From: an uncultured Alphaproteobacteria bacterium
Lineage (GTDB): Bacteria > Pseudomonadota > Alphaproteobacteria > UBA6615
Direction of reading: 5' to 3'
NCBI GenBank assembly: GCA_943787445.1
Contig: CALSML010000026.1
Span: 122,187-186,186, forward strand
Length of the DNA: 64,000 nucleotides
Each line of letters begins with the position of its first letter. Position 1 is the first letter of the stretch. Shown here in pieces: positions 2,419-18,806 of the stretch. A program made the translations under genes and the position numbers. The notes beneath the pieces were generated by a model. That model made no database searches. It was not told the DNA's origin and worked only from the letters and a program-made list of their open reading frames with translations.

Positions 2419-3766
2419 ATGAGCGATGATGAGCGTTCTACTGTTCGCGGCCGGGTGGGCCGTTACGGCCGGGTCGGGTTCGCCGTCGGTGGCGCGGCGT
2501 ACGGATGGCGGGGAACCGGTATCTTGGGCCGCGAGCGGACCACGAGACGCAATGCCGCGGACCTGAAGCTCGCACTGGGTGGTCTCTAAGGGCCGCTCAT
2601 GAAGGCGGCTCAGATTCTGGCGACCATCCCGATGCCCTGCCCGCGGACTATGCCCGTGAATTGGCAGAACTGCAGGCCAATGCGCCGCCAATGGGGTGGG
2701 CGTTTGTGCGCCGCCGGATGGCGGCAGAACTGGGACCGACTGGCAGAGTCAAGTTCCGCGAATTTCCCGCGCGAAGCCTCCGTGCGGCCTCACTCGGCCA
2801 AGTTCATGCGGCCACAGACATAGACGGCCGCGAAGGTTGCGAGCAAACTGCAGTATCCGGATATGGCCTCGTCGTGTCAGCGGACCTTAACCAGCTCAAA
2901 CTCGCATTCTCGGTCTATCGCCGGTACGACCCGGCGATTGACCCATCGCAGATTCATGCCGAGCTGGCCGAGCGCCTGACCGAAGAACTCGACTATCTCC
3001 GCGAGGCGCGCACTACGCGGCTCTATGGGGCCATGCTCGCCGACGAAACCGGATGTTCATGTGCCCGAAGTGATTGAGGATCTCTCGGCCCCTCGCCTGC
3101 TGACGACCACCTGGCTCGAAGGCCGGCCGATGGCGCAGTTTGCCGAGGAGGCGGGTACGACCCAGCGTGAAGCCGCCGCTCTGAACATGTTTCGGGCCTG
3201 GTATGTGCCGTTCTATGGCTATGGCGTGATCCACGGTGACCCGCATCTGGGCAACTATTCCGTCAATGCGGATGCTTCGATCAACCTCTACGATTTCGGC
3301 TGTATCCGGGTATTTCCCCGCGTATTTCGTCGAAGGTGTGGTCGAGCTATATCACGCGCTACGCACCGATGACCGGGATCGGGCGGCACATGCCTATCAG
3401 CGCTGGGGCTTCGACGACATTTCGAACGAACTGCTGGACACGTTGAACATCTGGGCGGGGTTTCTCTACAAGCCGCTGCTGGAAGACCGGGTGCAGCGGA
3501 TTCAGGAATCGGAGTCGGGCACCTATGGCGCGACCGTCGCCGGCAAGGTGCATGAAGAGCTTCGCAGAATTGGTGGCGTCACCCCGCCGCGTGAATTTGT
3601 CCTGATGGACCGGGCAGCCATCGGGCTCGGATCGGTGTTCCTGCGCTTGCGCGCGGAACTGAACTGGCACCGGATATTTCATGACCTGATCGATGAATAT
3701 GATCTGGATGGTCTGACGAAACGGCAAAGCGGTGCGCTGACCGCACAAGGTCTGGAGTTGCCCTAA
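2419..3766 (+). CDS. ABC1/AarF-UbiB family atypical kinase (frameshifted)
   Basis: GPLMKAAQILATIPDALP, SLGQVHAA, GVIHGDPHLGNY, LYDFGCIR. Confidence 0.85.
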
Positions 3767-9597: not shown

Positions 9598-9813
9598 CTA
9601 GAAGCCTTCGCGCTCCTTGCGTTTGCGGGCAAGCTTGCGCTGACGGCGAACGGCCTCGGCGCTTTCGCGCGCACGTTTCTCTGATGGCTTCTCGTAAGAG
9701 CGCCGCAGTTTCATCTCACGAAACACGCCTTCGCGTTGCATCTTCTTCTTCAGCGCTTTCAGCGCCTGATCAACATTGTTGTCGCGTACAACAACCTGGA
9801 CGATGGGAATCAC
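9598..9813 (-). CDS. rpsU: 30S ribosomal protein S21
   Basis: [46 protein letters not shown]. Confidence 0.93.
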
Positions 9814-10061: not shown

Positions 10062-11018
10062 GTGAAACAGAGGAGAACACAGGTGCACAACCTGTCTCGT
10101 TGGACTCATTCTTTGAGTGTGGTTGCATTGGTCACGCTGGCGGTACCGGCATGGGCACAAACTGAGTCCGGATCGCTTCAGGTGACGGCGACACCGGTCA
10201 CTGATTCCTGCGGTCAGGTCGGGGTTGAATACACCGATGAAGCCGGGCTGACCCTTGAAGAGAAAATCCGGCGCATGGATCAGGCCCTGACGCGTTCGTT
10301 GAACAAGTTTGACGAGTGTCAGGATGAGGACGAGAAACGGCCCGAAGAGCAGGCCGAAACCGATCCCGAGACCCGGACGGATCAGGCCGCTGCCGAATCC
10401 GAAGGTGGTGAAGCCGAAAGCGAGTCTGCGGCACAGGAATCCGAAGCAGAGGCATCCGAAGCAGAAAAATCCGAAAGTCAGGCGAGCAGTCAGGCTGGGG
10501 GTACAACCTCCACAGCACCGGGTGATATTTCCGGAGACCAACCCGGGCCGGCACCCCAGCAACAGGCCACGACCACCCCACCGCAGGCGCTGCCGAACTT
10601 TACGCCGCCGCCGGCATCGAGCGCGTCAGGCGGGTCGTCTGCCGCCGCGTCGGGGGTTCAGGGAGATGGAGGCGCCGAGCACCTGCCAGCGGGTCCGTCA
10701 TCGATTGCTTCGGGTGATCTGGCCGGTAATGAACCGGAGCCTGAACCAGCCCAGCAGGCTAGTGTTGGTGGCACGGGAGTCGAGGGCGACGAGGCGCCTG
10801 AGCCGCGCGGTGGTGGCACCGAGGATGGTGTTGCCGCCCGTTCGGGTGGCCAGGTGCTGAACAACGGCAAACTGCCGGATGATATCCCGCCGGCAGATAA
10901 TGATAGTATTCTGGAAGCGCAGATACGTCAGGCTGCGATCAACGAACCGGATCCGGAGTTGAAGAAAAAGCTCTGGAACGAATACCGGAAATATAAGGGC
11001 CTCCCTCCGGTCAAGTAG
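10062..11018 (+). CDS. exported acidic low-complexity protein (first gene of candidate envelope operon)
   Basis: Signal peptide ...VVALVTLAVPAWAQ; long Glu/Ser/Ala/Pro-rich linker; conserved-looking ends. Confidence 0.7.
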   Translation: MKQRRTQVHNLSRWTHSLSVVALVTLAVPAWAQTESGSLQVTATPVTDSCGQVGVEYTDEAGLTLEEKIRRMDQALTRSLNKFDECQDEDEKRPEEQAETDPETRTDQAAAESEGGEAESESAAQESEAEASEAEKSESQASSQAGGTTSTAPGDISGDQPGPAPQQQATTTPPQALPNFTPPPASSASGGSSAAASGVQGDGGAEHLPAGPSSIASGDLAGNEPEPEPAQQASVGGTGVEGDEAPEPRGGGTEDGVAARSGGQVLNNGKLPDDIPPADNDSILEAQIRQAAINEPDPELKKKLWNEYRKYKGLPPVK

Positions 11019-11044
11019 CCGTTGTCGAGAGAAGAGAGATTGCG

Positions 11045-12307
11045 ATGCGTATGCTGATGAAGAAATTGGGTGTCTACACCGTTTGTTTTTGTTTTGCCCT
11101 GACCGGCTGCGTCACCAATCAGGGGGGGACAGGCAATGGAACGGGTGCCAGCGCGGGAACGAATGTGGGACCCCAGTTGTCATCGCTGTTCGGCAAGTCG
11201 GGTACGGCGGTCGTGGATCCGGCAAAGCCAAAGCTGGATGTCGTTATTCCGGTGTTCGACCCGGGACTTTCCGAAGAGGCCGAGGACTACAAGGAAGAAG
11301 GTGTCTGGCCGGAACTGCGCCGTGCCGAGTCCAATCGCTTCGCGGTCAAGCTGAAGGAAGCCATGGAGAAGACCGGCGCGTTTGGCGCTGTCCGGGTGAC
11401 GCCGGACCAGAACGCCACCGGAGACCTCTATGTGCTGGGGAAAATCGTCGAGTCCAATGGCGAGGATGTCGAGATACTGATCGATGTGGTGGATATCACC
11501 GGGGACCAGTGGTTCTTCCGATCCTTTGATCACACGGTGGGCCCGGGCTTTCACAAGAACACACGCAATGAAGGACTTGATCCCTACGATCCGGTTTTCG
11601 ATGCGGCCGCCAATCGCATTGCGCTGGAACTTGAGGATTATGAGGTTGCAGATATCGAATCGCTCCAGCGCGTGACCGAGTTGCGGTTCGGATCGAATTT
11701 TGCCGAAGAAGCCTTTGTCGAGCATCTGGACCTGACCGGGCGCACGGTCGATCTGGTCAGCTTCCCGGCCGAGGATGACCCGATGCTGCGCCGGACCCGC
11801 GCGGTTCGCGTGCGCGACCAGCTTTTCGTTGACGGACTGCAGGATCACTACCGTGCGTTCAGCGCCGAGATGCAGACCAGTTACCTGATTTGGCAGGAAC
11901 AGAGCCTGCTGGAGATCGAAGCTCGGTCTGAGGCCAATAAAAAAGCGGCCGGGCAGGCCGCACTCGGCGTGCTGGCCATTGGCCTGAGCGTTCTGGCAAT
12001 CATGGCGGGCGCCCGTTCGAATTCGACCGCAGGTTCAACCGCGGCGACGACCGGGGCTGTTGTTGGCGGCGTTGTGGGCGCGAAACTGCTGACCGACAGT
12101 TTCCGGACCAGCGAGGAGGCCAAGGTGCATCGTGAAGCGCTTGAGGAGCTGGGGCAGTCCATCGATATCGATCTGGCACCGCGGGTGGTGGCATTCGAGA
12201 AAGAGACCGTCGAACTGACAGGCACCGCCGCGGAGCAGTTTGCGCAATGGCGTGAATTCCTGCAGAAAATCTTCGAGCAGGAAAAGACGCCGCAGGTGCA
12301 GTTGTAA
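11045..12307 (+). CDS. lipoprotein with C-terminal hydrophobic/glycine-zipper segment
   Basis: Lipobox FALTGC; GVLAIGLSVLAIMAGA...TTGAVVGGVVGAKLL. Confidence 0.75.
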   Translation: MRMLMKKLGVYTVCFCFALTGCVTNQGGTGNGTGASAGTNVGPQLSSLFGKSGTAVVDPAKPKLDVVIPVFDPGLSEEAEDYKEEGVWPELRRAESNRFAVKLKEAMEKTGAFGAVRVTPDQNATGDLYVLGKIVESNGEDVEILIDVVDITGDQWFFRSFDHTVGPGFHKNTRNEGLDPYDPVFDAAANRIALELEDYEVADIESLQRVTELRFGSNFAEEAFVEHLDLTGRTVDLVSFPAEDDPMLRRTRAVRVRDQLFVDGLQDHYRAFSAEMQTSYLIWQEQSLLEIEARSEANKKAAGQAALGVLAIGLSVLAIMAGARSNSTAGSTAATTGAVVGGVVGAKLLTDSFRTSEEAKVHREALEELGQSIDIDLAPRVVAFEKETVELTGTAAEQFAQWREFLQKIFEQEKTPQVQL

Positions 12308-12322
12308 GTCCGTACCGGTTCC

Positions 12323-13862
12323 ATGCTGCTCGACAAACTTGAAGAGGCAAACCGGGCGACCCAGCGGCGCAGATTGCTTCTTGCTGCCGGTTTTTTCGGG
12401 GTTGTCGTATTTCTCGGTCTCTTCCTTCTGGCGGTTTTTGTTCTCCAAACGGACAATGATGCCGCGACACCGGATGAGTCGGTGCTGCGTGCCGACAATT
12501 CACCGGTCGCCCGAACGCCGGATGGGGCGGCAAAGCCCGCTGCGAAAGAGGATGACGTCACGCGTCTGCGGCCCGACCGTCCGGCCGCGTCGGCGACACC
12601 ACCCGCCCGGGTCGAAGATGCGGCAGCGAATGCGGCTGCGCGGGATCAGTTCAAGGTGGCCATTCAGGCCTTTCAAAAGGTTGTTGAACCCGGATTGACC
12701 GAGTCCGCATTCGCCGCATGGAATGCCGATGCCCAGACAACGTTGCTGGCCGGACGGGACGAGGCCTTCGAATTTTTCTCCAGAGGACAATATGCGGAGG
12801 CGCTGACCCGATTGGAGACCGTGTCGGACCAGGCCAGACAGGAACTGGCGGCGCGCGATGCCGCATTTGAAACCGCACTGGCCGCGGCGCAGAACTTTTA
12901 CGACGCTGATGATCACGAACAGGCAGCGGACAGGATTGCGCGGGCGCGCCAACTGAATTCCACATCCGAGGATGCGCGAGATCTGGAAGCCCGGGTGGCC
13001 AGACTTCCCGAGGTTCTGACCGCCATCGGCAAGGCTGCGGTGGCCCGGATCGAGAATGATCTCGAAGCCGAAGATCGTCATCTGTTCACGGCCTTGTCAC
13101 TGGATCCGGCGCGTACGGAACTGGCGGAGCGCCAGACACAGATCCGCACACAATTGCAGGAAAGCCGCTTCGCGGCTCAGATCGAGTCCGGATTCAGCAA
13201 TGTGCTGTCACGCAAACTGGGGGCGGCGCGAACGAATCTGAAGAATGCCCGTGCCATCTATTCGGGGCGCAGTGAAGTTGGTCTTCTGTCCCGGAAGATC
13301 GATGCGCTGGACCAGCAGTTGAAGTTCGAGACCTTGATGGCCAAAGCCGGTTCGGCCCGTGCAGCCGATGACTGGGTGGCGGCGGAGGACTTCTATGCTC
13401 AGGCGGGTGCTCTGGTTGCGGATGACCCGAAAGTCGTCGGTGACTTTCAACTGGCAGGCGAAGTGAACCGGTTGCGCACGGAACTGGAACGGATTCTCGA
13501 TGCGCCCGAACGCCTGTCATCACGTTGCGGTGGCCGACAACGCCAAAGGGCTGGTGTCGAAAGCGGGCGACGTCGCCGAACTCAGCCCGTCTTTGGCGGA
13601 CGCATCACGCAAAGTGGCCCGCCTGATTGATGAATATGGCCGGAAAGTCTCCATCCGGATTCTGTCGGACGGTGTGACGCGCATTTCCGTGCAGGGTGTG
13701 GGACAGGTGGGTGTGACCACGGATCGCACGATCCAGCTCCGCCCTGGAAGCTATGTCTTTGAAGGCGCACGCGCGGGTTTTCGCTCAAAACTGATACCGG
13801 TTGATATCCTGCCGGGGACCGAGGGTCTGGTCGTGGAAATATATCCCAATGAGCCAGTTTGA
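12323..13862 (+). CDS. single-TM protein with long helical/TPR-like region and C-terminal PEGA-like segment (frameshift near 13510)
   Basis: TM LLLAAGFFGVVVFLGLFLLAVFVL; frames 12323 and 13500 join; C-term RTIQLRPGSYVFEGARAGFRSKLIPVDI. Confidence 0.7.
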
Positions 13863-15852
13863 AGAGGGTCTGCGGCAGGCCCGCAGAAGTCAGGTTCGTT
13901 TCTATATCGGCGGATTGATCGGGCTGGTTCTGATCGGTTTCGCGGTCATCGGGGTGCTGATATCGACCAGTGGCACTGTGGTGGAGATCGCACCGGATGA
14001 GGCTGTCCCGGCCGGCCGTGTTGAACTGGTCGAAGGTCTCGGGCTTGTGACCGGCATGACGGTCTACAGCGTGGCCGGTGCGCCGACGGTGTCCATACAT
14101 TCTGAAGGGTTCCGCGATGTGGTGCGCGCAATTCAGCCCGACGAACTGGGCCGCACGATTACGGTGGTTCTGGAGCCCTTGCCGGGACGGCTCGATGCCG
14201 CGACCATTCGTGCATTGCCGGAGACGCGATGGCGCATCGACGGTGATCTCGTGGCCATTGCGACAAGCATTGATCGGGAGATGGAGGCCGGAACATATGC
14301 GCTGAGCGTCAACCATCCGCATTTCCAGATCGTCGAGCAAAGCGTTGAACTCGAGCGAGGCAAGACCAATGAATTACGTCTCGATCTTGCTCCTGTAGAC
14401 GGCCGGATATCCATCAATTCGAAACCGGCTGGCGCCGAAATTCTTCTCGATACCCGCAAGATCGGTGTGACCCCGCTGGAAATGCCGCTGGCGGGTGGGT
14501 CTTATCAGTTGCGGGTTGTGGCCCCGGACCGGCAGCCCGTCGAGGAGACCGTGCAGATCACGAACGCGGCGCCCCTGATCGAGCGTCAGTACAATCTGAA
14601 ACCCGTATCTTCGACATTGAAGATCGTCACCATTCCCTCGGGCGGGCAGCTTCTGGTCGATGGGCGGCGGGTGCCCCAATCCGGTGAAATCGAAGTCACA
14701 GCCAATGAGGATCACAACGTCACTTATGTGCGGGATGGCTATTTGCCGAAAAGCCAGACGGTGCGTTTGCGCGCCAATGAACAACGTGAGCTCACCCTCC
14801 GTTTGCAGGCGGATTTGGGTCTTGTGAGCATCCGGACCACGCCCGGTGCCGATATTCTTGTCGATGGCAAAAAAGTTGGCACAGGCGAAGCCACCCTGCA
14901 GCTGCTGGCGGTTCCGCAAAAGATCGAATTGCGCAAGAGGGGTTACCGGACGATCCGCAAGACCGTCACGCCGTCGAGCAAGCGGCCGCTCGTTATTCGC
15001 GAGGAACTGGTGGACGAAACTTCGGCGCGTCTCACGGAATCTCCGCGGAACTACAAGAATTCGGTGGGCATGTCGCTGCGCCTGTTCGAGCCGGGCACTT
15101 TCGTCATGGGTGCGCCGCGCAGTCAGAAAGGTCAGAGAGCCAACGAATTTGAAAAGAAGGTTCAGTTGACCAAGGCGTTTTATGCGTCCCGCCATGAAGT
15201 GACCAACGGACAGTTTGCTAGGTTCCGAAACGGCCGGAGTGGCCGGGCGAATGAACCGGTCACGGGTGTCTCCTGGATTGATGCAGCGTCATTTGCCAAC
15301 TGGCTGAGCGTGCGCGAAAAGCTGACGCCGTTCTATCGCATTTCGGGGGGGCGTCTGGTCGCTGGCAGTAAAACCAGTGACGGGTATCGCCTGCTCAGCG
15401 AAGCGGAATGGGAGTGGTTGGCACGTCGTGCGGGGCGCTCCAGCCAGTCAATATTTACCTGGGGGAACGGGGATACGGTACCAGCCAAATCGGGGAATAT
15501 CGCTGATGAATCGGCCAATGGATTGGTGCGGTTTTATGTGCCCCGATACAATGATGGATTCCCGCGCACATCCCCCGTTGGAAGTTTTCCGGCTGAGCCT
15601 TCCGGCCTGTTCGACATGACCGGGAATGTCAGTGAATGGGTGCATGACTTCTATTCACTGGACCCGCCGGAAAGGGGACAGACCGAAGTTGATCCCCTAG
15701 GCCCGAATTTCGGGGATTCGCATGTGTTCAAGGGGTCGAGCTGGAAGTCGGGGACTCGAACGGAATTGCGCGCTTCCTATCGTGAGGGCCGCTCCAGCGG
15801 TCGCGATGATATCGGATTCAGAATCGGGAGGTATCTCCATGGTGCGCAATAG
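13849..15852 (+). CDS. membrane-anchored PEGA-repeat protein with C-terminal SUMF1/FGE-fold domain
   Basis: Start MSQFEEGLRQARRSQ then TM; PEGA-like repeats (STLKIVTIPSGGQLLVDGRRVPQSG; GLVSIRTTPGADILVDGKKVGTG); EVTNGQFARF, PVTGVSWIDAASFANWL, YRLLSEAEWEWLAR, GLFDMTGNVSEWVHD. Confidence 0.85.
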   Translation: MSQFEEGLRQARRSQVRFYIGGLIGLVLIGFAVIGVLISTSGTVVEIAPDEAVPAGRVELVEGLGLVTGMTVYSVAGAPTVSIHSEGFRDVVRAIQPDELGRTITVVLEPLPGRLDAATIRALPETRWRIDGDLVAIATSIDREMEAGTYALSVNHPHFQIVEQSVELERGKTNELRLDLAPVDGRISINSKPAGAEILLDTRKIGVTPLEMPLAGGSYQLRVVAPDRQPVEETVQITNAAPLIERQYNLKPVSSTLKIVTIPSGGQLLVDGRRVPQSGEIEVTANEDHNVTYVRDGYLPKSQTVRLRANEQRELTLRLQADLGLVSIRTTPGADILVDGKKVGTGEATLQLLAVPQKIELRKRGYRTIRKTVTPSSKRPLVIREELVDETSARLTESPRNYKNSVGMSLRLFEPGTFVMGAPRSQKGQRANEFEKKVQLTKAFYASRHEVTNGQFARFRNGRSGRANEPVTGVSWIDAASFANWLSVREKLTPFYRISGGRLVAGSKTSDGYRLLSEAEWEWLARRAGRSSQSIFTWGNGDTVPAKSGNIADESANGLVRFYVPRYNDGFPRTSPVGSFPAEPSGLFDMTGNVSEWVHDFYSLDPPERGQTEVDPLGPNFGDSHVFKGSSWKSGTRTELRASYREGRSSGRDDIGFRIGRYLHGAQ

Positions 15853-15994
15853 GATCACGGCTGGCCGACCACGATTTCGAAGGGCGATTGTAGTCGCCAT
15901 GGCGATTGCGGTTGGCGGCGGCCTCATTGGCTTTGCCTATGCCCAGTCCGGAATAAGTCTGAATTCACCAGTGTCCTTCCCGGTGGACATTTAG
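15839..15994 (+). CDS. 51-aa exported mini-protein (predicted mature peptide QSGISLNSPVSFPVDI)
   Basis: ATG overlaps previous stop by 14 bp; Arg-rich n-region, hydrophobic core, AYA|Q cleavage-like site. Confidence 0.6.
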   Translation: MVRNRITAGRPRFRRAIVVAMAIAVGGGLIGFAYAQSGISLNSPVSFPVDI

Positions 15995-16018
15995 CGTGTC
16001 AGGAAAGCGAGTGGAAAC

Positions 16019-16795
16019 ATGATATCTGCAATCAAGAACACCCTCGCGCTGGTCATCTCGATCATCGTCGTTCATCTGTTCTATGTGGGCTATGTCTGGC
16101 CGGAATCCTCAGCAGCCATCGAGGCGGCCAGAGCCGCAGGTCAAAGTGCGCCGCGTGATCTGGCCGTGATCATCAAGGACTGGGAGCAGGAAATCTGCAT
16201 CATCATGATGCTCTGGGGCACCTTCCTGATTCTGGACAAGTGTTTTGCGATCATGAAGGACCGTTACCTCTTCAATGTGGATCTGCTCGAAGGTGCTGCA
16301 GAAGGCGCTGATGGCGAGGATGATCTGGCATCCATGCTCGAAGCGCTGGAGAATCTGCCGGCACGCATTCGAACCACGCCGCTGGTGCGGACCCTGTCGG
16401 CCAGTTTGCGTCGTTTTCTGATCACCGAGAATGTCCAGAACACATCCGAGACGATTGACGCCAATGTTGAGTCTCTGGCGGTGAAGCAGGAGGCCGAGAA
16501 TTCGATGGTCCGGTATCTGATCTGGGCCATCCCCGCGATCGGGTTTATCGGGACCGTGCGAGGCATCGGACAGGCATTGTCACAGGCGGATCAGGCTCTG
16601 GCCGGTGATATCGCCGGGATGACCGAAAGCCTCGGTGTGGCTTTCAACTCCACCTTTGTGGCCCTGCTGATCAGCATCGTCTTGATGTTCCTGTTGCACC
16701 AGCTTCAGCGGTTGCAGGATTCCATGGTGACGGACACTCAGGAATATTGTGAATCCTTCCTGCTCAACCGTATCAGCACACTGGGTCGAAACTGA
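16019..16795 (+). CDS. MotA/TolQ/ExbB-family proton channel
   Basis: YLIWAIPAIGFIGTVRGIGQAL and LGVAFNSTFVALLISIVLMFLLHQL, canonical ExbB/TolQ TM region. Confidence 0.88.
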   Translation: MISAIKNTLALVISIIVVHLFYVGYVWPESSAAIEAARAAGQSAPRDLAVIIKDWEQEICIIMMLWGTFLILDKCFAIMKDRYLFNVDLLEGAAEGADGEDDLASMLEALENLPARIRTTPLVRTLSASLRRFLITENVQNTSETIDANVESLAVKQEAENSMVRYLIWAIPAIGFIGTVRGIGQALSQADQALAGDIAGMTESLGVAFNSTFVALLISIVLMFLLHQLQRLQDSMVTDTQEYCESFLLNRISTLGRN

Positions 16796-17853
16796 GACCG
16801 CCCCGCAAATCCGAGGGATTCAACCTCGCCTTTCTGGACGTCATGTCCTGTGGGCTGGGCGCGATCATTCTTGTTCTCATGCTGGTCAAACACGATGTTG
16901 AGCATGTGTCGGATGAGAGCGAACGTCTGACGGCGGATCTCGAGCGGCTGAAGGAAACGGAAGAGCAACTCAGCGCCAAAGTCGTGAATACCTTGCGTGC
17001 GAAAGCGGCAACCACGGGCGAGGTTGAAGCGCTGGAAGCCGAGATTTCCAAGGTCCAACGGGAAATCGATCAGACCCGGGTGGAGATCACGCAACGCGAA
17101 AGCAAGGAAAAGGAGCTCGAGGAAACGATCAAGACCATCGAGGTCGAGGATAACACCGATGTGGTCGAGAACCGCCAGGTGGGAGAAGAGAATTATCTCA
17201 TCGGTCTGAAGGTGGAGGGAAAGCGGATCGGAATTCTGGTCGACAGTTCGGCATCCATGACGGAAGAAAAGCTGATCGACATTATTCGCCGGAAGAACAT
17301 GGCGCCGAATGCGCGCGCGCAAGGTGCGAAATGGCAACGCACGCGGCGTGTTGTGAACTGGCTGATTGCCCGTGTGCCAGTGACAGTGTCGTGCGCGTTG
17401 TTGCCTTCAATGACAAGACCAGGGACCTGAGTGATGCGTCCGGTGTTTCGGGCAGTGACGCCGCCGGGCTGGGCCGGATTGTGGCGGACATGAACGCTCT
17501 CATTCCCGGAGGTCCCACCAATCTGGCGGCGGGCCTCAAGGCGATTGCCGCGCACAAACCGACAGATATTTACGTGGTAACGGACGGTCTGCCCACGGCC
17601 GGGGATTCCGGGTATCGCAGCCTCAATCCGTTCTCCGGCTGCAGTGCGCTTTGGGGCGGGTCCACCTCGATTTCCGGGGAGTGCCGGGCGCGTCTGTTCC
17701 AGCATACGATCAACAATTCGGGACTGACCAAGATTCGTACCAATGTGATTCTGTTGCCGCTTGAGGGTGATCCGGAAGCCGCTGCTTTTTTCTGGCGCTG
17801 GACCGCCCTGACCAGTGGTCTGATGATCAGTCCCCGCGGAGACATGGCCTTGA
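16792..17853 (+). CDS. single-TM vWA-domain protein 1, ExbD/MotB-like N-terminus (probable CTG start; frameshift ~17380)
   Basis: N-term LRPPRKSEGFNLAFLDVMSCGLGAIILVLML; coiled coil; MIDAS-like DSSAS; frames 16843 and 17331 join; probable end ...MISPAETWP* if one C of CCCC at 17832-17835 is removed. Confidence 0.75.
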
Positions 17854-18806
17854 AGCGCAAATCACGCGAATTCGAGATATTCAGCCTCTCCTTCCTCGAC
17901 ATCATTTCATGCGGGTTCGGGGCGGTGGTTCTGCTTGTCCTGATTTCACCCTTTGCCGAATCCGTCCTACCCAATTTCACATCCGAAACCAAGCGCATGC
18001 TTGAAGAGGTGCTCGATGCGGAGGCCCGTGTGACGGCATTGGAGAGCGCCCTTGAGCAGGAACTGGAGCTACAGGAAGAGGTGGAGGAACGGCTCACCCG
18101 TGAGCAGACCAAAGCGGCCGAGGCGCAGAACGCGTTACGCGCAGCGAACGCCAAAGCAGAAAGTCTGAGCGAAAATCTGGCAGGTCTGCAGCTTGTGGAA
18201 CGGTCCCTGCGAAATTCGAGCCGGGCGAGCCTCACCCCGAACACATCGCAAACGCGCGATGAGGAGGTTGGCGGCATTCCCGTTGATAGCGACTATGTGG
18301 TGTTCATCATCGATACCTCGGGAAGTATGCAGGCCATCTGGAACCGGGTGACGAAGGAAGTCGAAAACGTCATTCGCATCCATCCCCGGATCAAGGGGTT
18401 CCAGATTCTCAACGACAACGGAACCCATCTGATCAGCGGCTATAGTGGTCGCTGGATTCCCGACACCAAAGCCCGGCGCGACAGCGTGATCCGGCTGTTT
18501 CGAAACTGGAAAAGTGCTTCGAACAGCAGCCCGATCGAAGGGCTGGGAGTGGCACTGAAACGCTATGTGAATCCGAGTCAGAAGGTCTCGATCTATATCT
18601 TCGGGGATGACTATACCGGTTCGACCTATGACCCCGTGATCAAGACGCTCCGCACGGCCAACACCAATCGGGTGACCGGCAAGCCGCTGGCCCGGGTCCA
18701 CGCCATCGGGTTCCTTTCCCCCACCTCGAATGGCCGTTTTGAAACCCTGATGCGGGAAGTCACGCGACAGAACGACGGCACGTTTGTCGCCCTGCCGATC
18801 AAATAG
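17844..18806 (+). CDS. single-TM vWA-domain protein 2, ExbD/MotB-like N-terminus
   Basis: MALKRKSREFEIFSLSFLDIISCGFGAVVLLVLI; coiled coil; MIDAS DTSGS. Confidence 0.8.
   Translation: MALKRKSREFEIFSLSFLDIISCGFGAVVLLVLISPFAESVLPNFTSETKRMLEEVLDAEARVTALESALEQELELQEEVEERLTREQTKAAEAQNALRAANAKAESLSENLAGLQLVERSLRNSSRASLTPNTSQTRDEEVGGIPVDSDYVVFIIDTSGSMQAIWNRVTKEVENVIRIHPRIKGFQILNDNGTHLISGYSGRWIPDTKARRDSVIRLFRNWKSASNSSPIEGLGVALKRYVNPSQKVSIYIFGDDYTGSTYDPVIKTLRTANTNRVTGKPLARVHAIGFLSPTSNGRFETLMREVTRQNDGTFVALPIK

Follow-up and report, generated by a model that had tools for sequence, protein, structure and literature searches.

The eight-gene operon at positions 10062–18806 of the window (the whole 64,000-nucleotide stretch of alphaproteobacterial DNA analysed here) probably encodes a trans-envelope motor of the 5:2 type, driven by the proton motive force (PMF), in which the lipoprotein g2 is the target of von Willebrand factor A (vWA) heads; the probability of this reading is put at about 0.68. 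A motor of this type, with an axle formed by a vWA heterodimer, is suggested because the operon encodes a MotA_ExbB channel with two conserved threonines, and because both partner proteins combine a transmembrane (TM) aspartate, a coiled coil and a vWA domain. The same core has been predicted independently with AF3 for homologues studied by others (Mol Biol Evol 2025; PMC12204202), which is counted here as support for the motor. The initial annotation had proposed an undescribed system, but the motor core was already described and modelled in that paper, and the operon is, therefore, not a new kind of system.

Operon organization and genomic context

The source genome is assembled into 29 contigs, and its closest named relatives are alphaproteobacterial. 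The eight genes (Table 1) are tightly packed on the same strand, as the initial annotation had it, and form one operon with opposite-strand genes on either side. The 5' flank contains pntB-type transhydrogenase genes (plus strand) and rpsU (minus strand, 9598–9813), and the 3' flank an oligopeptide ABC transporter (minus strand). In a promoter and terminator scan, sites were no commoner than in shuffled sequences, and none framed the operon. Other MotA_ExbB genes are present elsewhere in the genome (strongest match 1.7e-37), and the g6 channel is, thus, an additional one.

Table 1. Genes of the operon, with positions in the window.
Gene	Position	Strand	Description
g1	10062..11018	+	exported low-complexity acidic protein, C-terminal motif DNDSILEAQIRQAAINEPDPELKKKLWNEYRKYKGL
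g2	11045..12307	+	lipoprotein (lipobox in relatives, AlphaFold2)
g3	12323..13862	+	N-terminal TM, TPR-type repeats and PEGA-like C terminus; frameshifted
g4	13849..15852	+	N-terminal TM, 4 PEGA and SUMF1/FGE-like domain (Pfam)
g5	15839..15994	+	51-aa exported peptide, ending in SLNSPVSFPVDI
g6	16019..16795	+	MotA/TolQ/ExbB-type channel subunit (Pfam MotA_ExbB)
g7	16792..17853	+	vWA protein 1: TM helix, coiled coil, vWA; indels, apparent CTG start
g8	17844..18806	+	vWA protein 2: TM helix 16–34, coiled coil 45–128, vWA 151–317

No frameshifts were mentioned in the initial annotation, but g3 and g7 are frameshifted in this assembly, and neither is a single open frame in the window. The frame of g3 changes near 13503–13530, and g7, by comparison with its closest relative (G003), is missing a G at 17379 and has an extra C at 17835; the annotated g7–g8 overlap (17844–17853) holds only when the g7 frame is followed across these indels. 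The indel check was made against loci from relatives, in which both genes are intact (about 480–540 aa for g3). Several further genes of the window have single-base frame changes (near 3306, 4788 and 37201, for example) in a tblastn comparison of ORFs from two relatives with the window, the matches of which include spurious antisense ORFs, so that these frame changes carry no rate. Given that the relatives are intact and that similar indels occur in other genes of the window, the g3 and g7 frameshifts would most simply be read as errors in an indel-prone assembly. Programmed frameshifting and gene decay are not favoured, in view of the intact relatives, the single-base shifts elsewhere and the g6 protein, which shares 99% identity with that of its nearest relative while the DNA shares about 84%. 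There is no ATG, GTG or TTG at the start of g7 (16792); the apparent start is a CTG (16792–16794) overlapping the stop of g6 (CTGA), and the matching position is occupied by CTG, TTG or ATG in several alphaproteobacterial relatives.

The channel and the paired vWA proteins

The g6 protein belongs to the MotA_ExbB family (Pfam PF01618, 3.9e-13, 49.7 bits for a cut-off of 22.9), and about four hydrophobic TM segments can be recognized in it by eye. Two of its residues, T179 and T212, are invariant in an alignment of 33 sequences and fall on T148 and T181 of Escherichia coli ExbB, in an ungapped hhalign segment obtained with a single ExbB and with a low reported probability. A PDB profile search with g6 returned nothing at the limits used. 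The Pfam match and the aligned threonines agree with the initial annotation of a MotA/TolQ/ExbB-like channel.

In g7, a single N-terminal TM helix with the motif FLDVMSCG is followed by a coiled coil and then by a vWA domain with a DxSxS motif; the Pfam family VWA_2 matches this domain in intact relatives. The TM helix of g8, likewise single and N-terminal, carries D19, which is invariant in an alignment of 38 sequences; in the AlphaFold2 model of the protein (pLDDT 84.8), this helix is followed by one of 84 residues and then by a vWA domain. A Foldseek comparison of this model with the PDB gave 69 matches at E<=1e-3, and those listed were mostly vWA domains. The TM aspartate and DxSxS are present together in all of the g7 (63/63) and g8 (68/68) proteins with a recognized TM motif, most of the others being cut at the 5' end or having the same FLDC reading by eye. 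When g8 was aligned with ExbD by hhalign, the wrong region was matched and the TM helix was left unaligned, and the equivalence of the TM aspartates rests, therefore, on the position of the motif. The vWA domains called in the initial annotation are, thus, confirmed by VWA_2 in g7 relatives and by AlphaFold2 and Foldseek for g8, and the B-subunit-like arrangement that it saw in both proteins (TM aspartate, coiled coil, vWA) is supported by the motif counts and the g8 model. In the profile comparison that it suggested, MotA_ExbB matched the channel, and no operon protein had a Pfam match to ExbD, MotB or OmpA at E<=1; the lack of an ExbD/TolR-type protein is counted in favour of the vWA motor.

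The putative envelope partners

No Pfam family matched g1 above its cut-off; its C-terminal motif DNDSILEAQIRQAAINEPDPELKKKLWNEYRKYKGL is common to most of the g1 relatives listed, many of which have an N-terminal signal or a lipobox. A lipobox was found with a strict pattern in 41/51 g2 relatives, with a near-lipobox cysteine in several others, as expected from the annotation of g2 as a lipoprotein. The AlphaFold2 model of g2 (pLDDT 80.4, pTM 0.76) has an N-terminal alpha/beta domain, followed by a pair of very long helices that contains a glycine-rich segment. Foldseek gave a weak, sub-threshold resemblance of g2 to LptE, HpaA and the TolB N-domain (best E 2.6e-3), and a PDB profile search gave nothing at the limits used. 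The g3 protein is TPR-like in a PDB profile search, and its PEGA-like C terminus was read by eye; g3 and g4 were localized on the basis of hydrophobicity only.

The description of g4 as a PEGA/SUMF1 protein is borne out by Pfam (four PEGA repeats, 7.3e-32; SUMF1/FGE-sulfatase, 5.6e-37). Formylglycine-generating enzymes (FGE) have a catalytic cysteine pair near a C-terminal GGSF-type motif. The corresponding region of g4 reads KGSSWKSGTRTELR and has no conserved cysteine in 29 aligned sequences, in which the only column exceeding 30% cysteine lies outside the catalytic region. As judged from this alignment, g4 is a SUMF1/FGE-like protein lacking the catalytic pair (pseudo-SUMF1). The domain is of the type found in GldK/PorK (NCBIfam GldK 1.4e-23, a match due to this shared domain), and PorK, in which the SUMF1 fold is retained, forms the ring of a PMF-driven system (PMC12635249). 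The operon might, accordingly, be read as a T9SS/Gld-like engine for gliding or secretion, in which the motor would move a periplasmic ring or track of g4, as PorLM moves PorKN. This seems unlikely given that the score of g4 (83.8 bits) falls far short of the GldK cut-off (350 bits), that g4 has a TM anchor in place of a lipobox (found in only 1/57 g4 proteins) and four PEGA repeats, that no operon protein has an NCBIfam match to GldM or GldN, and that no conserved secretion or adhesin genes are found alongside.

An ORF ending in P-x-D-I lies between g4 and g6 in 63/64 loci. It is a small ORF in 61 of the 64, and in two of the other three the ORF found there is longer or called differently but also ends in FPVDI. 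As the search pattern itself demanded P and D, chance was measured from FPVDI ends among the 12,513 ORFs of the locus set: there are 41, all of them (41/41) at the g5 position. The conservation of so short a sequence at a single position implies that there is a binding site for it, open to mapping, which makes the g5 tail a sharp handle on the system. Its alternating hydrophobic pattern recalls, by analogy only, the D-box of TonB, which binds ExbD by strand recruitment (PMC10907165).

Conservation across bacteria

A scan with the g8 alignment, using one genome per GTDB species, found at least 238 relatives, the best 80 of which were kept; these are close to moderate relatives rather than the whole superfamily. 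Among these 80, the genes stand in the same order in 47 of the 49 loci with a full left flank, with g1 present in 43 of the 49, g2 in 47, and g3, g4, g6 and g7 in 48 each. In L079, g1–g3 are on the other strand beside the remaining genes, as is g3 in L084. The locus set covers Alpha- and Gammaproteobacteria, Desulfobacterota and one MAG labelled Acidobacteria, and the genes, thus, co-occur across classes in the neighbourhood comparison that the initial annotation had recommended. The pairwise distance matrices of six operon genes correlate at 0.82–0.94. The conserved order and the distance correlations are far beyond chance, and these sequence comparisons indicate that the genes around the motor core are inherited as one unit. 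A Verrucomicrobia locus (L137) has g8 only, and the more distant channel-plus-vWA loci (L045, L048–L051) have no match to the other operon genes. With g8 found at 1e-20 in 16/399 sampled genomes of the phylum, the distribution of the operon is patchy.

Second copies also occur. A genome of the same genus carries most of the operon a second time, in divergent form (L047, G001:C123:3000-14547), with a channel 41% identical to that of the window, and another genome (G015) has the full operon twice, on different contigs (L039 and L040). The gammaproteobacterial version is often trailed by two lipoprotein-like genes and an M48 peptidase (L087:11026-13798, for example).

In about 33 loci, mostly from Gammaproteobacteria and Desulfobacterota, an extra gene, mostly of about 440 aa, lies between g6 and g7; the only one scanned (L097:7531-8895) has a C-terminal FHA domain (3.2e-11) and an N-terminal part without a Pfam match. 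Proteins with the SUMF1 fold serve in signalling elsewhere, TagR being one example. These two observations are those that speak for a sensor or regulated channel, in which the vWA domains and the pseudo-SUMF1 would sense an envelope ligand or stress, gate proton flow and report to the cytoplasm, through the FHA protein in the gamma variant. The variant in the window has no cytoplasmic signalling gene in its operon, and the pore threonines and TM aspartates are strictly kept, as in working motors, making this explanation somewhat less probable even than a T9SS/Gld-like engine.

Proposed mechanism

The best guess for the operon product is a force transducer that spans the envelope and acts on a lipoprotein. 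Five g6 subunits would surround one g7–g8 heterodimer, and proton flow past the two aspartates would turn or cock this axle, setting its paired vWA heads in motion in the periplasm. The N-terminally TM-anchored g3 (TPR/PEGA-like) and g4 (PEGA/pseudo-SUMF1) may form a periplasmic scaffold or ring, with g1 and g5 as flexible tethers, the conserved C-terminal peptides of which would dock onto other parts. The vWA heads would act on g2, probably at the outer membrane. The most speculative step is the output, which may be a Tol-like force or movement on an outer-membrane partner.

A more specific proposal, which we hold tentatively and at somewhat less than even odds, is that of a distinct, widely inherited trans-envelope machine with a job unlike those of Ton, Tol, flagella, T9SS and Zorya, in which the heterodimeric vWA motor drives a periplasmic PEGA/pseudo-SUMF1 and TPR assembly, and the P-x-D-I tail of g5 serves as a central docking element, perhaps through beta-strand recruitment of the D-box kind. 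An anti-phage system of the Zorya kind, hinted at by a weak PADLOC ZorA match of g6 (6.5e-4), is highly improbable given that there is no ZorB, ZorC or ZorD match and no peptidoglycan-binding OmpA-like domain, that the operon has no helicase or nuclease and housekeeping neighbours, and that no plasmid copies of g8 were found.

Comparison with known systems

The B subunits of ExbBD, TolQR and MotAB are homodimeric, with periplasmic domains of the ExbD or OmpA type. The operon shares with these motors the channel family, the aligned pore threonines and the TM aspartate of the B subunit, whereas a vWA heterodimer appears to take the place of their B-subunit domains and homodimers. Like Tol-Pal, it combines a PMF motor with a TPR protein and a lipoprotein, the latter weakly resembling the TolB N-domain and LptE, but TolA, the TolB propeller and the Pal OmpA domain are all missing from it. 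Membership of Ton or Tol-Pal was rejected, with no Pfam match in the operon to ExbD/TolR, TonB/TolA or TolB/Pal at E<=1. T9SS/Gld also links a PMF-driven MotA-like motor to a SUMF1-fold periplasmic protein, but its axle is made of GldM domains rather than vWA, its GldK/PorK is an outer-membrane lipoprotein, and its gene layout, with GldN, is unlike that seen here; the GldK score, the lipobox count and the absence of GldM and GldN matches given above led to rejection of membership. Zorya membership (ZorA and ZorB, plus ZorC/D or ZorE) was likewise rejected, the matches being weak and to ZorA only. The profile searches, thus, uphold the view of the initial annotation that the layout is not that of Ton, Tol, the flagellar stator, Gld or Zorya.

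The closest known system is the TPH-vWA family of Proteobacteria, in which TolQ-like pentamers are predicted to combine with a heterologous pair of TM-Asp vWA proteins, with no TolR or ExbD, and for which a 5:2 axle has been proposed; the function of related vWA transducers is stated there to be unknown (PMC12204202). The same layout is found here, with a TolQ-like gene beside paired, non-identical TM-Asp vWA genes and no TolR/ExbD, and it was likened by description to the Idiomarina family of that paper; loci of Agaribacter, Glaciecola and Opacimonas (L077, L078, L094 and L103) carry the present operon. The two differ in that no SUMF1, FGE or PEGA partner is named in the published text. In the open-access literature searched, the core is described in PMC12204202 only, and neither an experiment on any operon member nor an account of the complete set of parts was found, a set that adds to the core the SUMF1/PEGA protein, the TPR protein, the lipoprotein and two tether-like exported proteins, one of them the small peptide with the P-x-D-I end. 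The operon is best regarded as a better-defined variant of the published vWA motor core; the observation is good, and the class of mechanism is well supported. Few outputs are known for PMF-driven 5:2 motors, and the cassette provides the vWA class with a defined list of parts that stay together across classes. In a culturable carrier, such as Methylophaga aminisulfidivorans or Kineobactrum sediminis, its function can, therefore, be tested through the deletion of a single operon.
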